From contig NZ_AP024563.1 of NCBI RefSeq assembly GCF_018409545.1, positions 1,318,755 to 1,382,754 of the forward strand: DNA of 64,000 bases, written 5' to 3'. This DNA comes from Allochromatium tepidum (lineage in GTDB: Bacteria > Pseudomonadota > Gammaproteobacteria > Chromatiales > Chromatiaceae). Shown here one piece after another: positions 2,104-48,389 of the stretch. The notes under the pieces were generated by a model. The model did no database searches and was not told the origin of the DNA. It worked only from the letters and a program-made list of their open reading frames with translations. A program made the position numbers and the translations under genes. Every line of letters starts with the position of its first letter. The first letter of the stretch is position 1.

Positions 2104-4413
2104 ATGAATCTCGTCATCGTCGAATCCCCCGCCAAGGCCAAGACCATCAAGAAGTACCTCGGACCCAGCTTCGAGGTCGTCGCCTCCTATGGCCATGTGC
2201 GCGATCTGGTGCCCAAGGAGGGCGCGGTCGATCCGGATCACGGCTTCGCGATGAAGTATCAGATCATCGAGCGCAACGAGAAGCACGTCCAGTCGATCGC
2301 CAAGAAGCTCAAGGACTGCGAGGCGCTCTATCTGGCCACCGACCCCGATCGCGAGGGTGAGGCCATCTCCTGGCACATCCACGAGCTGCTCAAGAGCCGG
2401 CGTCAGCTCGGCGACAAGCCGGTGCATCGCGTGGTCTTCAACGAGATCACCAAGCGCGCGGTCCAGGACGCCATCGCCAATCCGCGCGGGATCTCCTATG
2501 ACCTGGTCAACGCCCAGCAGGCGCGCCGGGCACTCGACTATCTGGTCGGCTTCAATCTCTCGCCGCTGCTGTGGAAGAAGATCCGGCGCGGACTCTCGGC
2601 CGGACGGGTGCAGAGTCCGGCACTGCGCCTGATCTGCGAGCGCGAGACCGAGATCGAGGCCTTCGTCCGGCGCGAGTACTGGACCATCGAGGCCGATACG
2701 GCCAAGGATGAACGCGCCTTCATCGCCCGACTCACCACCTTCGGCGGCGAGAAGGTCGAGCAGTTCACGATCACCGACGAGGCGCGCGCCACCGAGGTCA
2801 GGATTGCGCTGGAGAGCGCCGCCGGCGGAAAGCTCAGGGTCGAGCAGGTCGAGCGCAAGCAGCGCAAGCGCCAGCCGGCCCCGCCCTTCATCACCTCCAC
2901 GCTCCAGCAGGAAGCGGCGCGCAAGCTCGGTTTCACCGCCCAGCACACCATGCGCGTTGCCCAGCAGCTCTACGAGGGCGTGGACGTCGGTTCGGGCGCG
3001 GTCGGTCTCATCACCTACATGCGTACCGACTCGGTGAATCTGGCCCAGGAGGCCATCGCCGAGATCCGCGCCTATGTCGTCGAGCGCTATGGCGAAGCGG
3101 ATCTGCCGGACGCGCCGCGCCTATTCAAGACCAAGGCCAAGAACGCCCAGGAGGCCCACGAGGCGATCCGTCCGACCTCGATCCGGCGCGAGCCGTCGGC
3201 GGTCAAGGCCCATCTCACGGTCGAGCAGTTCAAGCTCTACGATCTGATCTGGAAGCGCACGCTCGCCTGTCAGATGGCCCATGCGCTCATCAACCAGGTC
3301 GCGGTCGACCTGAGCGCCGGCGCGGGCAACATCCTGCGCGCCACCGGCTCGATGGTGGTCGATCCCGGCTTCATGCGCGTCTATGTGGAAGGACGCGACG
3401 ACGCCAAGGGCGCCGCCGACGACGACGAGGACCGGATGCTCCCCGAAATGAAGGTCGGCGAGCTGGTCGACCTGATCGCCATCCGCCCCGAGCAGCATTT
3501 CACCGAGCCGCCGCCGCGCTACAGCGAGGCCACGCTCGTCAAGGCGCTCGAAGAATTCGGCATCGGCCGGCCCTCGACCTATGCCTCGATCATCTCCACG
3601 CTCCAGGATCGCGAATATGTGATCCTGGACAAGAAGCGCTTCGTGCCGACCGACGTCGGGCGCGTGGTCAACCGCTTCCTGACCGAGTATTTCACCTCTT
3701 ACGTCGACTACGACTTCACGGCGCGTCTGGAGGACGATCTGGATGCCGTCTCGCGCGGGGAGGAAGAGTGGGTTCCGTTGCTGGAGCGTTTCTGGCGCCC
3801 GTTCAAGGATCTGGTCGACCACACCCAGGAGCACGTCAAGCGCAGCGACGTGACCCAGGAGCGCATCGAGGAGACCTGTCCCAAATGCGGCGGTCCGCTC
3901 GCCATCCGGCTCGGGCGCAACGGGCGCTTCATCGGCTGCACCCAGTATCCCGAGTGCGACTACACCCGCGATCTCGACCCGAACAAGGCCGAACGCGAGG
4001 CGCCCGAGGTCGTCGAGGGCCGCTCCTGTCCGCTGTGCGGCTCGGCGCTGGAGATCAAGCGCGGACGCTACGGCAAGTTCATCGGTTGCAGCGCCTATCC
4101 GACCTGCAAGCACATCGAGCCGCTCGACAAACCCGAGGATACGGGCGTCATCTGTCCGAAGTGCAACAAGGGCACGCTCCAGAAGAAGAAATCGCGGCGC
4201 GGCAAGGTGTTCTATTCCTGCTCGACCTATCCCAAGTGCGACTATGCGCTCTGGGACGAGCCGCTCGCCGAACCCTGTCCGAGTTGCGGCTGGCCGGTGC
4301 TGACGCTCAAGATCACCAAGACCCAGGGTGCGGCCAAGGTCTGTCCGCAGAAGGAATGCGGCTATCGTGCGCCGGTCGAGGAGACGGACGCCGATTCGGG
4401 CACGGCGAACTGA
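2104..4413 (+). CDS. topA: DNA topoisomerase I
   Basis: Type IA topoisomerase that relaxes negative supercoils in the cytoplasm. The 769-residue protein begins with the TOPRIM domain (MNLVIVESPAKAKTIKKYLG; acidic ATDPDREGEAI near residue 80). It contains the active-site tyrosine in LITYMRTDSVN near residue 303. The C-terminus has successive four-cysteine zinc ribbons (CPKCGG...CTQYPEC, CPLCGS...CSAYPTC, CPKCNKG...CSTYPKC), then a degenerate CPSCGW unit. Length and domain order fit the gammaproteobacterial enzyme. ATG 2104 matches the family start; the same frame is open upstream to 1954, inside smg, which I treat as unused. Confidence 0.97.
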   Translation: MNLVIVESPAKAKTIKKYLGPSFEVVASYGHVRDLVPKEGAVDPDHGFAMKYQIIERNEKHVQSIAKKLKDCEALYLATDPDREGEAISWHIHELLKSRRQLGDKPVHRVVFNEITKRAVQDAIANPRGISYDLVNAQQARRALDYLVGFNLSPLLWKKIRRGLSAGRVQSPALRLICERETEIEAFVRREYWTIEADTAKDERAFIARLTTFGGEKVEQFTITDEARATEVRIALESAAGGKLRVEQVERKQRKRQPAPPFITSTLQQEAARKLGFTAQHTMRVAQQLYEGVDVGSGAVGLITYMRTDSVNLAQEAIAEIRAYVVERYGEADLPDAPRLFKTKAKNAQEAHEAIRPTSIRREPSAVKAHLTVEQFKLYDLIWKRTLACQMAHALINQVAVDLSAGAGNILRATGSMVVDPGFMRVYVEGRDDAKGAADDDEDRMLPEMKVGELVDLIAIRPEQHFTEPPPRYSEATLVKALEEFGIGRPSTYASIISTLQDREYVILDKKRFVPTDVGRVVNRFLTEYFTSYVDYDFTARLEDDLDAVSRGEEEWVPLLERFWRPFKDLVDHTQEHVKRSDVTQERIEETCPKCGGPLAIRLGRNGRFIGCTQYPECDYTRDLDPNKAEREAPEVVEGRSCPLCGSALEIKRGRYGKFIGCSAYPTCKHIEPLDKPEDTGVICPKCNKGTLQKKKSRRGKVFYSCSTYPKCDYALWDEPLAEPCPSCGWPVLTLKITKTQGAAKVCPQKECGYRAPVEETDADSGTAN

Positions 4414-41952: not shown

Positions 41953-43638
41953 ATGTCCACGCCAGATCCCACGCTCATCGGCCGCGTCATCGACATCCAG
42001 GGCGGACGCCTGATCGCCACGCTCTTTCCGTCCGAGGACGGTTTCCCCTCAGCCAAGACGCTGGAAGACGAGTCGCTCCCGGTCGGCCAGTTGGGGAGCC
42101 TGGTGGAGGTCCGGGACCGGGCCGGACACATCCTCGCCGAGATCGCGCGCAGCCACGAAAAGGCCGTCGGTACGCGCACCGTCCAGGGCGAGGCCAACGC
42201 GACTCCGCGTCAGGTCACGGTGCGCGAGCGGCGGCTGGAGCTGACCGCGCTCGGCGAGATCAACGGCGACGGCCGGCTCGAACCCGGCGTGAGCCGCTAT
42301 CCGGTGGTCGGCGCGACCGTGCATCTGATTCCCACCTCGCGCTTGGCGATCCTGCTGGCGCGCAAGACTCAGGTCGCGCTGGAACTGGGCCGGCTGTCGG
42401 TGCGTTCGGCACTCAAGGCGACCTTGGAACCCACAGCCCTGTTCGGGCGCCATCTGGCCATCCTCGGCCAGTCAGGCTCGGGTAAGTCCTGGACGCTCTC
42501 CAGTCTGATGCAGCGCGTGGTCAAGACCATGCCGCACTCGCACATCGTCCTGCTCGACCTGCATGGCGAATACGGCTGGAAACGCCCCGACGGCACGACC
42601 GAAGGCATCTTTCCGCCCGGCACGGCGCGCTATCTCGACGCGCGCGAGCTGGAGATCCCCTATTGGCTGCTGACCTATTCGGAGCTGGTCGATCTCTTCA
42701 TCGACCGCGCGGACGTCAATGCCTCGCTCCAGATCGCCTTTCTGCGCGAGACCGTCTATGCCCTGCGCAAGCAGTCCAATCAGCACGCCGGGATCGATCG
42801 GCTCTCGGTCGACTCGCCGGTCTATTTCCCGATCGACGAGCTGTATCAGCGCTTCAAGAAGGCCAACGAGGAGAAGCTGGAGTTCGGCAAGGTCAAGGGA
42901 CCGCTGTTCGGCGCCTTCGACGACTTCCTGGTGCGCTTCCTCTCGCTCTACAACGACGGGCGCTACGACTTCTTCATGCATCCGCGCAAGAACAAGAGTT
43001 CGGCCAGTCTGGAGGGGCTGTTGCGCGACTTCGTCGGGCTGGGCGAGCCCAAGCGTCAGGTGACGGTGATCGACCTCAGTCCGGTCCCGGTCGATCTGCG
43101 CCCGGTGATCTCGGCCCAGATCGGCCGGCTGGCCTATGAGTTCAATTACTGGAATCCGCGTCGGCACGAATTTCCGCTGCTGCTGGTGTGCGAGGAGGCG
43201 CATCAGTACATCCCGCGCGAGTCCGACACCCGCTTCGTCGGGACGCGCCGGTCGATGGAGCGTATCGCCAAGGAGGGGCGCAAGTACGGCGTCACGCTCT
43301 GCATCGTCAGCCAGCGTCCGACCGAGCTGTCGGAGACCGTGCTGGCGCAGTGCGGCAACTATCTCTGTCTGCGCATCTCCAACGCCGACGACCAGGAGTA
43401 CGTGCGTCGTCTACTGCCCGAGGGGGCAAAGAATCTCGCCGACCGGCTCGCCTCGCTGCGTCGCGGTGAAGTCCTGGCGGTGGGCGATGCCGCGCTGCTG
43501 CCCACGCGCATCCAGGTCGACCGTCCCGATCCGCCGCCTTCGAGCAGTGACGCGCCCTTCTCCCAGAGCTGGATGCAGGGACCGGAGGATCTGGACGTCA
43601 ACGACATCATCGATCGCTGGTGGCGGCAGGTGCGGTGA
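41953..43638 (+). CDS. HerA-type helicase/translocase ATPase (DUF87)
   Basis: A 561-residue ATPase. The N-terminal HAS-barrel-like region (LIGRVIDIQGGRLIATLFP) is followed by the RecA-like core with Walker A LGQSGSGKSWTLSSLM, the sensor-like HIVLLDLHGEYGW, Walker B LLLVCEEAHQYIPRE and the arginine-bearing ERIAKEGRKYGVTLCIVSQRP. HerA proteins are hexameric DNA translocases that work with NurA nucleases or in defence systems. No NurA, SIR2 or other effector lies beside it, so the role is open. The overlapping gene downstream starts in its stop codon (GTGA). Confidence 0.88.
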   Translation: MSTPDPTLIGRVIDIQGGRLIATLFPSEDGFPSAKTLEDESLPVGQLGSLVEVRDRAGHILAEIARSHEKAVGTRTVQGEANATPRQVTVRERRLELTALGEINGDGRLEPGVSRYPVVGATVHLIPTSRLAILLARKTQVALELGRLSVRSALKATLEPTALFGRHLAILGQSGSGKSWTLSSLMQRVVKTMPHSHIVLLDLHGEYGWKRPDGTTEGIFPPGTARYLDARELEIPYWLLTYSELVDLFIDRADVNASLQIAFLRETVYALRKQSNQHAGIDRLSVDSPVYFPIDELYQRFKKANEEKLEFGKVKGPLFGAFDDFLVRFLSLYNDGRYDFFMHPRKNKSSASLEGLLRDFVGLGEPKRQVTVIDLSPVPVDLRPVISAQIGRLAYEFNYWNPRRHEFPLLLVCEEAHQYIPRESDTRFVGTRRSMERIAKEGRKYGVTLCIVSQRPTELSETVLAQCGNYLCLRISNADDQEYVRRLLPEGAKNLADRLASLRRGEVLAVGDAALLPTRIQVDRPDPPPSSSDAPFSQSWMQGPEDLDVNDIIDRWWRQVR

Positions 43639-44168
43639 GCGGTGCCGTGAACAACGAAAACGGCCGTCGTCGGGTCCGGCTCCGGGTGGGGCTGGGGGCG
43701 GCTCTGGGATTCGGCGCGATCCTCATCATCGTCCGGGCTGTCTGGCCGGTGCTGTATCCGCCTGTGTCGCAGGTCGCGTCGCTCGATCCGCGCTGCGATC
43801 TGCGGGCCGGACCCTGTGAGTCGCGTTTCGGCGGCGGTGGCCGGGTGCGCTTCGGGATCGAGCCGCGGACCCTTCCGGTGGCCGCGCCGCTGCGGCTCGA
43901 AGTCGAACTCTCGGGACTGGCGGCCGAAGCGGTCGAGGTCGATTTCGTCGGCGTCGAGATGTACATGGGCTTCAACCGCGTAGCGCTGGAATCGCTCGGC
44001 GATGGGCGCTATGCCGGGCATGGCATGATTCCGGTCTGTACGAGTGGGCGTATGACCTGGGAGGCGCGCGTGCTGATCCACACCCCGGATGGATTGCTGG
44101 CCGCGCCCTTTCGGTTCGAGAGTGCGCCGCAGGTGCTGCTGCAAGGGTTCCTCCAAACGCGACGGTAG
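43635..44168 (+). CDS. Hypothetical single-pass membrane protein, C-terminus replaced at the integron junction
   Basis: From GTG 43635 (overlapping the herA stop) the product is about 177 residues. It has one N-terminal helix (VGLGAALGFGAILIIVRAVWPVLYPP) and an exported beta-rich domain with CDLRAGPCESRF and DFVGVEMYMGFNRVALESLG ... CTSGRMTWEARVLI, including three cysteines. This resembles unnamed conserved gammaproteobacterial proteins. After FRFES (about 44125) the frame runs into the antisense of the truncated integrase gene, so the last dozen residues are foreign and the natural end is lost. Function unknown. Confidence 0.65.
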   Translation: MSGAVNNENGRRRVRLRVGLGAALGFGAILIIVRAVWPVLYPPVSQVASLDPRCDLRAGPCESRFGGGGRVRFGIEPRTLPVAAPLRLEVELSGLAAEAVEVDFVGVEMYMGFNRVALESLGDGRYAGHGMIPVCTSGRMTWEARVLIHTPDGLLAAPFRFESAPQVLLQGFLQTRR

Positions 44169-44807
44169 CGGCACCACCCGATCTTTCTGTCCCTTGCCGT
44201 CGCGCACGACGATTTGATGATAGTGGAAGTCGATATCCTGCACGCGGAGCCGCACGCACTCCATCAACCGCATTCCGGTGCCATACAGTAGCGCGGCCAT
44301 CAAGTGTGGAGTTCCCGCGAGGCCGGCCAACAGTCGTCCGACCTCCGAGCGTTCCAGCACGACGGGTAGTCGCTTCGGTCGCTTGGCGCGAGCGAAATCC
44401 CCAAGCGCGTCCAATGACTGTCCAAGCACCTGTTTGTACAGAAACACCAGGGCGTTCAATGCCTGGCTCTGGGTGCTGGCCGAGACCTGACCACGCACCG
44501 CCGGGTCTTCGAGAAAATCCCGGAGGCGGTCGGCGCCGACCTCGCTTGGATCGCGGTGATCGCAAAACAGAATGAAGCGGCACACCCAGGCTTCATACGC
44601 CTGCTCGGTGCGGATCGAATAGTGTCGGCGCCGGATTTCCGCTACCAGACTCAGACGCTTGTCTGGGAAGGCCGCCAGATACGCCTCCGCGCGGCGGACA
44701 TGCCACCGAAGCGCGTTTTCCTTGACGCCGGACTGACGGGCTCTGGCAATGAAGTGGTCCCAAAAACGCTCCTTGGCGGCGTTTTCTGTTGCTTGATGTT
44801 CAGGCAT
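44126..44807 (-). pseudogene. intI: Integron integrase, 3'-truncated
   Basis: The protein reads MPEHQATENAAKERFWDHFI, then a SAM-like N-terminal domain (YSIRTEQAYEAWVCRFILFC). The start of the tyrosine-recombinase core follows: PVVLERSEVGRLLAGLAG, LLYGTGMRLMECVRLRVQDID (first catalytic arginine) and GKGQKDRVVPLPSRLEEPLQQHL. These are integron-integrase signatures. The homology stops at HLRR near 44126-44131. The HxxR and tyrosine boxes and the IntI-specific insert are missing, so it cannot be active. It is divergent from an attI-like region and cassettes, the standard integron layout. Confidence 0.9.
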
Positions 44808-44968
44808 GTGCTATGAACTGGATTCACAGACAGAGCGTGTGGATTCGGTTTAGCGTTGCTTGGGCGGTTTGACCTAGCCTTGCGAGTTAGGCAGAGTCTA
44901 TGCTAACGGTGCTAGGCGGAATCTGTCTAGCACGCCGGACCAACATTCTGTCTATTTAACTGTTGGGC
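44808..44968 (+). other. attI-like recombination region of the integron
   Basis: The 160 bases between the intI start and the first cassette end in the core site GTTGGGC (44962-44968), exactly complementary to the GCCCAAC that opens the next attC. A second GTTAGGC core-like site is at 44886-44892. The interval contains short CTAGGC/CTAGC repeats that may be integrase-binding sites. No obvious Pc promoter was recognised. Confidence 0.65.
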
Positions 44969-44987
44969 GCCATAGGACCCCCAGACA

Positions 44988-45506
44988 ATGGAGGAGATCT
45001 TCTCGTATCAGTTCCACTCCGAGTCTACGGTCCGCCTGATCTTCGGTGGTCTAACCGTTGTCGGAGTTGGTCTTGGAACCTTGTTTTGGATCGATTTCCG
45101 CAGGCGTTCTTCCCGGTCGTGGCGTATCGCAGGCGTGCTTGTCATGATTGCCGGGTTGCTACTTGGAGCGATCTTCGGCTACCGGGCGACCCAGCCGGAG
45201 TACTTCAAAAGACTTGCGGCAGACAATGATGGGTTGGCTCTTGAATACTACCTCTTCAGCGAGGACGTCTTTCTTCGCTGGGATACCGTCAACAGCATTA
45301 CTGTCCGAGAGAACCGCTTGATTGTCGACGGTGGTGCGCTAGGGACATATCGTAGCTCGGTCGTGTACCGCGGCGATCAGGACAGATTGCTGGGTGTGCT
45401 CGCATGCTTCTTGCCCGAAGGTGGCCCTCAAGAGCATGGTGGAGCCGCTCAGTGCCAAACCGCCCAACAAGAGCATGCAGCGGACGGCGCTTCGCGCCGC
45501 CGCTGA
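44988..45506 (+). CDS. Integron cassette 1 protein, membrane-associated hypothetical
   Basis: A 172-residue protein begins MEEIFSYQFHSESTVRLIFG and has two membrane helices (LIFGGLTVVGVGLGTLFWI and IAGVLVMIAGLLLGAIFGY). A soluble domain containing EYYLFSEDVFLRWDTVNSITV and a Gly/Gln-rich end read through into the attC site. The gene starts 20 bases after the attI core and faces away from intI, as cassette genes do. GGAG-like purines overlap the start only weakly. The family is not recognised; a pleckstrin-like or membrane-stress role cannot be supported. Confidence 0.75.
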   Translation: MEEIFSYQFHSESTVRLIFGGLTVVGVGLGTLFWIDFRRRSSRSWRIAGVLVMIAGLLLGAIFGYRATQPEYFKRLAADNDGLALEYYLFSEDVFLRWDTVNSITVRENRLIVDGGALGTYRSSVVYRGDQDRLLGVLACFLPEGGPQEHGGAAQCQTAQQEHAADGASRRR

Positions 45507-45521
45507 TGTTGAACGTTAGGC
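45462..45521 (+). other. attC site of cassette 1
   Basis: GCCCAAC (45462-45468) and GTTAGGC (45515-45521) match the attC cores RYYYAAC and GTTRRRY. Between them CAGCGGaCGGCGC and GCGCCGCCGCTG form a hairpin with an unpaired A, the usual extrahelical base. Confidence 0.9.
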
Positions 45522-45539
45522 AGCAACAATGGGGGCAAT

Positions 45540-46105
45540 ATGAAAAGAAATCTGATCGCGGCAACTGTTGGTATAGTTTTTTCCTTGATTCATTTTCAAG
45601 CTAATTCGGAAACCTATAGCGCACAGCATGAACAAGTGAAACAACATTTCCTAAGCAATGAAGAGAAAACAACAAAAGATGCAATCTGGACCGCAAGCGA
45701 TATATTCAAGGTTGGTGTAATCGACGATGGAAGTCGAAGAGACGGATACGCGGATTATGTATGCCAAGTGCTTTATGACTACGGCTTCAAAGGGAAAAAG
45801 GTTCCTGATTAGTTACGAAGCTCAGCACATTCACGCTTACTGTAATTCATTGTTTTTATGAAATTATTTTCAGCCATCTGAGTTTGTGCCAGGTACGCTG
45901 GTCGTCTGCGCTGACTTGGAGGCCGCGCTTAGGTGGTCAGAGATTGACCGGGCAAGAGAAAACAAAAACTTGGCCTGAGAGTTCTCGCACCGCAGTGCTG
46001 AGCTTCGTAACTAATCAGGAAAAGGTTTGGGTCCAGGTTGTTGATATTGTAAAGCTCTCTCGAAACGGAAAGTGGGTTAAATTGGGTGAGTCACGATGCC
46101 AGTAG
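45540..46105 (+). pseudogene. Integron cassette 2 gene, small exported protein, interrupted by a MITE
   Basis: The 5' part encodes a signal peptide (LIAATVGIVFSLIHFQANSE) and a mature region ending VCQVLYDYGFKGKKV, then stops within inserted DNA. The 3' part, after the insertion, reads WVQVVDIVKLSRNGKWVKLGESRCQ to a stop at 46105. Removing the 216-bp element plus one 8-bp duplication joins the two in frame to a 113-residue protein. The family is unknown. Its normal stop lies 1 base before the next attC core site, as expected for a cassette gene. Confidence 0.85.
45804..46019. mobile_element. MITE-like element 1 (216 bp, 25-bp perfect terminal inverted repeats)
   Basis: CCTGATTAGTTACGAAGCTC... 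at 45804-45828 is repeated perfectly inverted at 45995-46019. Both ends are flanked by the 8-bp direct duplication AAAAGGTT (45796-45803 and 46020-46027). The interior has no transposase. It must have been moved in trans by an IS making 8-bp duplications; the family is not identified. Confidence 0.92.
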
Positions 46106-46106
46106 C

Positions 46107-46203
46107 GCCTAACAAGTCGCTCAAGCCGACCCAGCGCGGCCAGCGCCGTGGGTAAAATCAAGCGTCGTGCCGCGCGCTGGTCGGCTTACCTTAGTCGTTA
46201 TCG
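46107..46203 (+). other. attC site of cassette 2
   Basis: GCCTAAC (46107-46113) opens a 97-bp imperfect inverted repeat. CAAGCCGACC and GGTCGGCTTACC-like arms flank a long loop arm CAGCGCGG/CCGCGCGCTG, and it closes at GTTATCG (46197-46203). The AAC/GTT core triplets are kept, though the right core deviates from GTTRRRY. Confidence 0.8.
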
Positions 46204-46260
46204 CGCTGAGCAAAGCTCGGCGTATCTTGCAGGGTGAAAGCCCCTGTCGGGTAAGGGCTA

Positions 46261-46952
46261 GTACCGCGCACTTGGAGTTTTCGGGATAATCGCCCATCAC
46301 TCTCCCACGGTCTGATTGTGAGTTGCTCCCCATGGCCCGTCCTGCCCCGTTGATTGAACTGCCCCCTGAACCATGCACCGTCCTGAAAGGTCCGGCGCGA
46401 AGCCGCGAAACGGCCCACAGCCTGGTGCAGCGGGCGCAGATCGTGCGGCGTGCCGCCGAGGAGAACGCAGCAAAGCGATTGGACAGGCGCTGGGACTCAA
46501 TGAAGACGCGGTCGGGCCGTGGCGACGGCGTTGGGTCGAGGCCCAGGAGCGGCTCGCCGCTCTGACGGGCCCGCGTCTGGTGGCGGCGATCAAGGAGGTG
46601 CTGTCCGACCGCCCGCGTTGCGGCGCCCCGGGTGAGTTCACGCCTGAGAAAACCGGGATCCTCCAGAGCATGGCCTCCCGGGCCGCCTTTCTCCAGGATC
46701 CCCCCCATCGCATCCGCTTTGTTTATACCCCCAAGCCCTGTTCCCGGCTCAATCAGGTCGAGATCCGGTTCGGTATCCTCACCCGTCGGTTGCTCAAGCG
46801 CGGGCGCTTCGCCTCCACCGACGACCTCAAGCAACGGCTCCTTGAGTTCATCGATTTCTTCAACCAGACCCTCGCCAAGCCGTTTCGCCGGACCTACATC
46901 GGCAAGCCGCTGATGGAATAAAATTGTCCAGTCAACTTAAGGTGCGAAGTAC
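46261..46952 (+). mobile_element. IS630-family element, internally deleted
   Basis: The ends GTACCGCGCAC and GTGCGAAGTAC are imperfect terminal inverted repeats flanked by TA dinucleotides (46259-46260, 46953-46954), the IS630 target. Inside, a start at 46335 encodes RETAHSLVQRAQIVRRAAEE (helix-turn-helix). A frameshift follows to KAIGQALGLNEDAVGPWRRRW, then there is a jump to the C-terminal VYTPKPCSRLNQVEIRFGIL and FIDFFNQTLAKPFRRTYIGKPL ending at 46921. The central catalytic part is missing, so the element is dead. At 692 bp it is much shorter than a full IS630. Confidence 0.85.
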
Positions 46953-47544
46953 TAGGCCACCGAGTCCGGAATGATCAGGGGAATCGGGGTGCGTACATCC
47001 TTGCGATAGATCCGAAAATCGCTGTCCAGGGTCAGCACTGGGCTGGTGTCGAACGACTGGGCCATGATGACCAGGCAGGCATCCGCCAGCGACATGGGCA
47101 CATCGGCATACTTGTGCATCAGGGTCGCCACCTATTCCATCTCGGCGGCCAGGGTGAAGGGCAGTGCGACCAGTCCAATCCGGCACTGTCGTAGTACCCA
47201 TTCGGGATCGCCACCCGCGCGCTGCACCAGGAAACAGGCTTCCGAGATGACGGCCTCGCAGGTCAGGAGCGGTGGCGTGATGGTGGCTAACTGCCGACGG
47301 GTCCAGTCATGCCCCACTGGTCGCGGGCATTGAGTAAGGCGACCAGCCCTTTTAAGGTGCAAAAATACAACATTTATAATCAATAAGTTGCAGAGCACGA
47401 CCTGACTCAGTTAGCGCAATGCGCGCCCTATTGATGCTGTAAGTCGCTGAAAGATTTGCAACTTTTTCGAACACTTTATGAGCACCTTAAAAGGGCTGGT
47501 AAGGCGACTAACGGGCCTGTATCCAGGATAACCTGCCGCTTCAT
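46952..47544 (-). pseudogene. VapC-type PIN-domain toxin, broken by MITE, frameshift and stop
   Basis: The N-terminus MKRQVILDTGPLVAL carries the first PIN aspartate. It is cut by a 157-bp MITE (47343-47499) at codon 13. Downstream the frame resumes LNARDQW, then shifts by two bases in TGGGGCATG and continues HDWTRRQLATITPPLLTCEAVISE. A TAG after AAEME is followed by VATLMHKYADVPMSLADACLVIMAQ and VLTLDSDFRIYRKD, the normal PIN C-terminus. PIN toxins are ribonucleases. Three independent lesions show long-standing loss. The start overlaps the antitoxin stop by ATGA. Confidence 0.88.
47343..47499. mobile_element. MITE-like element 2 (157 bp, 18-bp perfect terminal inverted repeats)
   Basis: CCAGCCCTTTTAAGGTGC at 47343-47360 is exactly inverted at 47482-47499. 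The flanking 8-bp duplication is TAAGGCGA (47335-47342 and 47500-47507). The AT-rich interior has no gene. The ends differ from MITE 1, so a different IS moved it, though both duplicate 8 bp. Confidence 0.9.
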
Positions 47545-47786
47545 ACGCCGTAGTCCTGGAGATGGCGCGGGTTTGTGGACAAATCCGCCGGTGCGTCTTG
47601 GAGACATCCGACCAAGCCGCCGTTCTGAGCCAGTTCCAGGCAGGAGGCTGGGGCACCAGCGTGGCTGGCTGATGGGCTGGACTGAGTATGGCGGGTTTCG
47701 AGGAACTCGATGAAGTCCAGCACCTCGCGCTGTATGTTCGGGGGGAGGCGTTGGGTGTGAAGGTGGATTTGCTCTAGGATGGTCAT
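47541..47786 (-). CDS. VapB-like antitoxin (DUF2281)
   Basis: An 81-residue protein: MTILEQIHLHTQRLPPNIQREVLDFIEFLE, a linker, then GGLVGCLQDAPADLSTNPRH and DYGV. This is the DUF2281 antitoxin pattern, with an N-terminal dimerisation/DNA-binding part and a C-terminal toxin-binding tail. It ends in ATGA overlapping the PIN toxin start. With the toxin destroyed it is an orphan, although it looks intact. Confidence 0.82.
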   Translation of the reverse strand: MTILEQIHLHTQRLPPNIQREVLDFIEFLETRHTQSSPSASHAGAPASCLELAQNGGLVGCLQDAPADLSTNPRHLQDYGV

Positions 47787-48389
47787 CGTGTGTTTCTCTA
47801 TCCAGGCGGATCAGGAGTGATACTTTAGCCGGAACGCGATACTCCGGTACGCCGGAGGATTTCATTTTCGTACTTGAACTGCCACCCGTGATGATGCATC
47901 ACGCGAAATCGTCCCGGCGCTTGCGAGCACAAATCGATTAGCCTTCCGCGTTTGTGTATCTGAGGTCTGCCAGAAAAGCGTGCTGCCGTTCTGATCCATC
48001 TCTAGGATCACATAGCTTCCGATCTGGAGCATCAGTCCAAGGTGATCAGACGTCGCTCCAACCCCTGCGGAAAACTCACCAAAACTCGACTTTGGCCATT
48101 TTTAGCCCTGGTGGGAGGGCAGAGCGACGCCTCAACCGATGGTGATAGAGTGGATGGCTGTAGCGGCAGATGACCAGAGACGCTATCGTCTGATGTCGAT
48201 CCAAATGCCCGTGATGCCCGCTCATGAGCCATCCGCCGTACCTGAATTGTATCGATTTTGCAGCCGTTTGCCTGCCTGTTTACAAACCGACATGGGATCT
48301 AGGTGCCAGTGTTACTGGCGGGATGGCTTGTAATGGACGCCGGCTCGGGATCGCTTAAACCAGAGCCGCATTTGAACCGCAAGGAAGGC
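47787..48389. other. 603-bp region without a confident gene
   Basis: This lies between the antitoxin and nikO and is less GC-rich than its surroundings. A short minus-strand frame at 47862-48032 (56 codons, starting MLQIGSYVILEMDQNGST) has protein-like composition, but I cannot identify it and see no clear ribosome-binding site; it may be a gene fragment. The rest, 48040-48389, shows nothing I can support. Confidence 0.5.

Follow-up and report, generated by a model that had tools for sequence, protein, structure and literature searches.

Insertion of a 216-bp MITE with IS1595-type ends into an integron cassette gene of Allochromatium tepidum

An integron cassette gene of Allochromatium tepidum was found to be interrupted by a 216-bp MITE. 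The element lies in a stretch of 64,000 nucleotides (contig NZ_AP024563.1, forward strand, positions 1,318,755 to 1,382,754), which is called the window. The MITE is non-autonomous; it was very probably moved in trans by a resident insertion sequence (IS) of the IS1595 family, and one of its jumps ended in the cassette gene. The event is a real, precise and fairly recent insertion, of known kinds. Insertion boundaries, target-site duplications, further copies, the partner IS, hybrid elements and intact relatives of the interrupted gene were all seen directly.

Structure of the insertion

The site comprises the following features.

45796-45803, plus strand: target-site duplication AAAAGGTT, left copy
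45804-46019, plus strand (orientation arbitrary): MITE, 216 bp, one of five full copies in the genome
45804-45828, plus strand: left terminal inverted repeat, 25 bp, from repeat search
45995-46019, minus strand: right terminal inverted repeat, 25 bp, fully complementary to the left one, from repeat search
46020-46027, plus strand: target-site duplication AAAAGGTT, right copy

The initial annotation had described a 216-bp element whose 25-bp inverted ends are perfect and which is bracketed by an 8-bp duplication, and this was confirmed to the base (45804-46019). Complementarity of the terminal repeats is 25/25; the 27-nt arms returned by the inverted-repeat search consist of the 25-bp repeat and the two adjoining duplication bases at either side. 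A search of the window with the 25-mer of the MITE end, allowing ≤3 mismatches, gave two sites, both of them the MITE ends, and at least two matches were obtained in 0/100 shuffles. The chance of a matching 8-bp pair at the given spot is 1.5e-5.

With 216 bp the element falls into the MITE size range of 50-500 bp. It lacks a transposase gene: its longest open run in six-frame translation is ~70 codons, and the 315-aa transposase of the IS would not fit. Short length, absence of a transposase, 25/25 ends, duplications, near-identical copies and IS-like ends bear out its designation as a MITE. Precise insertion is likewise supported, by the boundaries with the perfect AAAAGGTT duplication and by uninterrupted relatives of the gene. 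The description as fairly recent fits the perfect ends and duplication, the open state of both gene halves and the single private base that separates this copy from the others. The earlier interpretation is supported.

The repeats might instead ordinarily belong to the gene itself, or form a selected RNA hairpin, e.g., a terminator. Folded as a single strand, the whole MITE indeed forms a strong structure (z = -6.5), as expected of a hairpin, but a perfect 25-bp inverted repeat gives such folding by itself. Rfam matches up to E 1 were absent from 43000-48000, and no terminator-like site was found in 45500-46300. Furthermore, near-identical copies of the MITE occur elsewhere, flanked by different 8-bp duplications, and the repeat is absent from eight relatives of the gene, by which a gene part or hairpin is already refuted. 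We regard this explanation as extremely improbable.

The MITE interior contains a protein-like open stretch of 38 codons (window 45862-45978) ending in EFVPGTLVVCADLEAALRWSEIDRARENKNLA and a stop. A working gene was rejected here, as the frame is broken by indels in the Thiocystis copy described below; the stretch is perhaps the tail of a captured gene. Another open frame (45884-46105; TTG start, 73 aa) crosses the right MITE end and coincides, by chance or not, with the frame of the cut-off 3' part of the cassette gene.

The interrupted gene and its relatives

Two parts of the gene were recognized on either side of the element.

45540-45812, plus strand: 5' part of the cassette gene, 90-aa ORF, from the ORF list, profile and alignments
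46022-46105, plus strand: 3' part of the cassette gene (KVWVQVVDIVKLSRNGKWVKLGESRCQ, stop), without a start, from profile positions 86-114 (E 1.8e-7) and alignments

The final codons of the 90-aa ORF (P, D, stop) are supplied by the MITE. The reading frame leading into the left duplication (...KGKKV) continues past the right one as (K)VWVQVVDIVKLSRNGKWVKLGESRCQ, open from 46022 and with its stop at 46103-46105. Removing the MITE plus one duplication would, as had been proposed from the letters, rejoin KGKKV to the downstream (K)VWVQVVDIVKLSRNGKWVKLGESRCQ. The restored protein of 113 residues put forward at the same time has a counterpart of equal length in L079 (113 aa), an uninterrupted homologue from another genome of this taxonomic family. 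Judged by eye, the N-terminus of the gene product is signal-peptide-like.

The proposed search for uninterrupted homologues was carried out. Eight distinct relatives pass through the insertion point uninterrupted, and 0/8 end at KKVPD. They comprise L079 and L080 from genomes of the same taxonomic family, L081, L082 and L083 from viral contigs (the L084 protein is identical to that of L083), L085 from an Enterobacter kobei plasmid, L086 from a Syntrophotalea plasmid and L108, which is ORF33 of Mannheimia phage PHL101. With L079 as query, the junction was crossed in one piece by 7/7 other relatives, whereas the window locus (L001) aligned in two pieces, query 1-88 and 86-113, that lie 215 bases apart; their overlap (query 86-88) lies within the duplicated target site. 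An alignment over L079 query 13-113 was also obtained for ten records of Mannheimia phages, among which some phages are represented twice. A family profile of six sequences, with the N-terminal part of the window's protein included as a row and its C-terminal part not, gave two pieces in the own genome, positions 3-90 (E 2.0e-41) and 86-114 (E 1.8e-7), and no third. The cassette protein was found in 3/146 family genomes, own genome included; in the class sample the profile matched 1/369 genomes, namely the own one.

Three relatives were tested for family membership, and the gene product belongs to phrog_7191, a family of unknown function with members on phage, plasmid and cassette. On E. kobei plasmid pEkFL23_IncU (L085 7265-7855) a relative is fused behind a zinc ribbon and located among resistance cassettes, with ere(A) on one side and qnrVC4 on the other. 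ORF33 of the Peduoviridae phage PHL101 (L108 2977-3306) is a relative with 57% identity located directly downstream of genes annotated as CI-like repressor and DNA ligase. Such a phage position is a frequent home of accessory lysogeny genes.

The structure of the L081 relative was predicted with a mean pLDDT of 76.3 (3 sequences), and in this model the break coincides with the beginning of strand 87-93. Truncation would cost the protein two of its four predicted strands and a short helix, together with the second of the cysteines conserved in the alignments of relatives. A structure search of the PDB with the model gave no match at E ≤ 0.001; the best one, 4jm1 with an alpha-lytic protease prodomain-like fold, had E 0.011, above the threshold, and a TM-score of 0.56 by query, followed by FliF ring domains, and no function was derived from these. 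A sequence search of PDB chains gave a chance-level match alone (E 0.48). Insertion after codon 88 would add a stop two residues on (KKV-PD-stop) and cut off the last 25 codons. Because of the early stop and the loss of these codons with their strands, helix and cysteine, the interrupted gene is very probably dead, and the truncated protein would not work.

The integron cassette

The gene is embedded in a short cassette array.

44121-44642, minus strand: intI stretch, match to the integron integrase model (positions 7-180 of 315)
44988-45506, plus strand: first-cassette ORF, 172 aa, no Pfam family above cut-off
45462-45521, plus strand: attC of the preceding cassette (GCCCAAC ... GTTAGGC), from folding, boxes from the sequence
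46107-46203, plus strand: attC of the interrupted cassette (GCCTAAC ... GTT), one long hairpin, from folding, boxes from the sequence

That the interrupted gene is an integron cassette gene was borne out by its organization, one ORF followed by attC and bounded by GTT cleavage sites. It also ends 1 base before attC, as annotated (stop 46103-46105, attC from 46107). The interrupted cassette begins at cleavage point 45516 of the preceding attC, and the GCCTAAC of its own attC is complementary to GTTAGGC at the cassette start (45515-45521). Folding with RNA parameters gave hairpins of -37.1 (bottom strand) and -33.8 kcal/mol (top strand) for the preceding attC, folded as 45460-45521, and of -43.8 and -40.4 kcal/mol, respectively, for that of the interrupted cassette. 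The intact L079 gene is preceded by GTTAGGC and followed by GCCTAAC and hence also looks like a cassette. The attC and the boundaries of the interrupted cassette are untouched by the MITE.

The local intI looks like a remnant, because only model positions 7-180 of 315 were matched; the C-terminal part was not found there, and an intact integrase beside the array is absent. A full-length integron integrase is encoded elsewhere in the genome (C1:114840-115742; L100, G000; 340.8 bits) and might act in trans on the cassettes of the window. Downstream of the last attC, at 46373-46921, a partial DDE_3-type transposase was detected with 25.3 bits, short of the 28.6 required by Pfam.

Copies of the MITE

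Five full copies of the MITE are spread over two contigs: the one in the window, C1:408915, C1:2364895, C2:30417 and C2:175142. Position 35 is T in the window copy and C in the other four, and no further difference was found. Perfect 8-bp duplications (AAAAGGTT, AAATTATT and TCTAATTT) flank 3/5 of them. The two others, C1:408915 with TTGATTTT/AAGACTTA and C2:175142 with TAAGAATT/TAATTTTT, lack matching flanks, which suggests rearrangement or adjacent deletion at these copies (L002 1505-1720, L005 1503-1718). At C1:1588682-1589940, an IS has split a sixth copy, whose outer duplication is TATCACTT.

Thiocystis violacea DSM 207, which we take to belong to the same family as the source genome, Chromatiaceae, carries a 218-bp relative with 89% identity (L087 7206-7423, duplication TGCGAACA) and, at 3979, an end fragment of a second MITE. 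Absent from 7 other genomes of the genus, the MITE was detected in 2/210 family genomes, own included, with ≤3 candidate places scored per genome. Plasmids gave no match at E 0.01. The exact end pattern was not found in viral contigs and had one match in genome contigs with the own genome left out, again in Thiocystis.

The partner insertion sequence

The initial annotation had proposed to find the autonomous IS by its 25-bp end sequence. This search was run and led to a resident 1035-bp IS of the IS1595 family, present in 12 copies with 99.3-100% identity. Its 315-aa transposase contains PF12762 (DDE_Tnp_IS1595, E 1.7e-32) and PF12760 (Zn_ribbon_IS1595, E 3.7e-18) and scores 208.9 bits against NF033547 (cut-off 75). 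The family was assigned by the DDE_Tnp_IS1595 domain together with the Zn-ribbon that is expected of members outside the IS1016 group, both of which were found. The 14 matches to PF12762 in the genome correspond to the 12 IS copies and two decayed pieces; another intact IS1595-type transposase was not found in the genome.

The right end of the IS is identical to the MITE ends at 23/25 positions and the left end at 19/23; both MITE ends are thus closer to the right end than to the left one. Allowing ≤2 mismatches, 30 end sites were found, assigned from coordinates as 14 of MITE type (six copies with two ends each plus one per hybrid), 12 of IS right-end type and four older relics; the IS left ends are too divergent to be counted in this search. 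A backwards control of the search gave 0 sites. No match to the resident IS was obtained for the interior of the MITE (positions 26-191). An origin of the MITE by internal deletion of this IS was rejected on these unmatched positions; the interior therefore derives from a different element, one not seen here.

Of the 12 IS copies, 7 are immediately bordered on both sides by a perfect 8-bp duplication: the one in the split MITE, C1:2385921, C1:1958154, C1:1956828, C1:2042476, C1:976350 and C2:82991. Two copies form a composite unit with one shared outer duplication, TTGTGTTT, two belong to the hybrids A and B described below, each of which has a duplication around the whole unit, and copy C2:70517 has an irregular poly-T flank. 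At one place, 291 bp lie between two IS copies, each with a duplication of its own (AACATTTA, AATATTCA). This IS-291 bp-IS unit occurs at two places (L040/L041; C1:2067565-2069925 and C1:1956828-1959188), one of them flanked by TTGTGTTT; since it recurs with this outer duplication, it has moved as a composite transposon. A second MITE-like product is the 225-bp, internally deleted relic of an older IS relative at C1:2436121-2436345 (L048 1501-1725), at which matching 8-bp flanks are absent.

Target choice was analyzed with 14 duplications, six from units with a MITE end and eight from an IS or composite unit. The irregular copy C2:70517, the two duplication-less MITEs and TGCGAACA of Thiocystis (50% A+T) were left out. 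The mean A+T content was 77%, a value reached in 0/10000 sets of random 8-mers from the window with its 65% G+C. The excess is partly regional, because the surroundings of the insertion sites, scored over 100 bases each side at 8 sites, already have 42-59% A+T.

Hybrids of MITE and IS

The split copy carries the IS at MITE positions 45-52, with the inner duplication CATTGTTT. Two further elements combine parts of both. Hybrid A (C1:2074067-2075153, 1087 bp) consists of the left 52 bp of the MITE (positions 1-52) and the whole IS and is flanked by the duplication AAGATATA; it shares with the split copy a private T at MITE position 31. Hybrid B (C2:43337-44543, 1207 bp) consists of the whole IS and the right 172 bp of the MITE (positions 45-216), with the duplication TAAATCTT. 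Read directly, these sequences suggest jumps in which an end of the MITE was paired with an end of the IS. Because two hybrids with mixed ends each own an 8-bp duplication, the IS transposase very probably uses MITE ends, and the MITE would very probably have been mobilized in trans by the resident IS.

Alternatively, the split MITE::IS unit was moved by its MITE ends, and one side was then deleted between neighboring ends. The right ends of IS and MITE in the split copy face the same way, lie 172 bp apart and are identical in their last 16 bp, which fits hybrid A. For hybrid B, however, the deletion would have to be exact with just 8 bases shared, which is strained, and the route requires two separate deletions and still has MITE ends making the jump. 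We consider it rather unlikely; it bears on the hybrids, not on the identity of the MITE. By either reading, the hybrids and the split copy place the use of MITE ends after the arrival of the IS.

The latter point also bears on the assumption that the MITE was moved by a different transposase, since lost, and that its ends resemble those of the resident IS by common ancestry. This would be in line with an interior that no part of the IS matches, and with T. violacea, where the MITE is 89% identical, yet just three weak IS pieces (67% identity) were found. Against it, MITE ends moved after the present IS had arrived, and this IS is the only intact source of an IS1595-type transposase found in the genome. 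A lost enzyme is hence improbable, and we infer that the resident transposase moved the copy in the window.

Mobilization by the resident IS would then proceed as follows. The IS1595 transposase would recognize the two identical 25-bp ends of the MITE and join them to staggered, A+T-rich target DNA, so that an 8-bp duplication would result. One such jump would have hit the one-gene integron cassette after codon 88, just before attC.

Discussion

The insertion is a clean case of a known kind of event, which the hybrids lift slightly above routine. It documents the loss of a cassette gene with attC kept in place; for cassette biology, one member of phrog_7191 has been broken. The hybrids are the strongest part of the finding and constitute a natural record of end exchange. 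Insertion of an IS into its own partner MITE may create mixed-end hybrids that keep transposing, a proposal to which we give an even chance. If true, an IS could renew or change its terminal repeats through such end exchange, and a MITE could become autonomous again by the same route. With MITE, partner IS and hybrids in one genome, natural substrates are at hand for testing the end choice of an IS1595 transposase.

The resident IS resembles the IS1595 family in its Zn_ribbon_IS1595 and DDE_Tnp_IS1595 domains, its 8-bp A+T-rich duplications, its multiple copies and its composite moves. One paper lists ISPna2, ISH4, IS1595, ISSod11, ISNwi and ISNha5 as the Zn-ribbon-bearing groups and gives 8 bp for the duplications, size only (PMC8101967); 8-bp A+T-rich duplications of IS1595 members are mentioned in two others (PMC12561309, PMC7835479). 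Particular to the resident IS are its 1035 bp and two unlike ends (19/23 left and 23/25 right as compared to the MITE end).

Bacterial MITEs with an IS partner share with the present element a size <500 bp, absence of a transposase, inverted ends, duplications, near-identical copies and IS-like ends. One of them, MITEPye1, was assigned to IS1182-type ISs through its ends (PMC11578231). The present MITE differs in that an IS-split copy and two hybrids tie it to its IS beyond end similarity.

Searches of open-licence papers gave no earlier description of a cassette gene interrupted by an IS1595-type MITE. Integrons that are flanked and moved by MITEs are known (PMC10969869, PMC3934969, PMC13367494). 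The 439-bp Acinetobacter MITE and the Tn3-related integron mobilization unit (IMU) are, like the present element, MITEs associated with an integron. The Acinetobacter MITE and the IMU, the latter with Tn3-type ends, flank and move whole integrons, whereas here a single MITE with IS1595-type ends lies within a cassette gene, beside a broken integrase gene.
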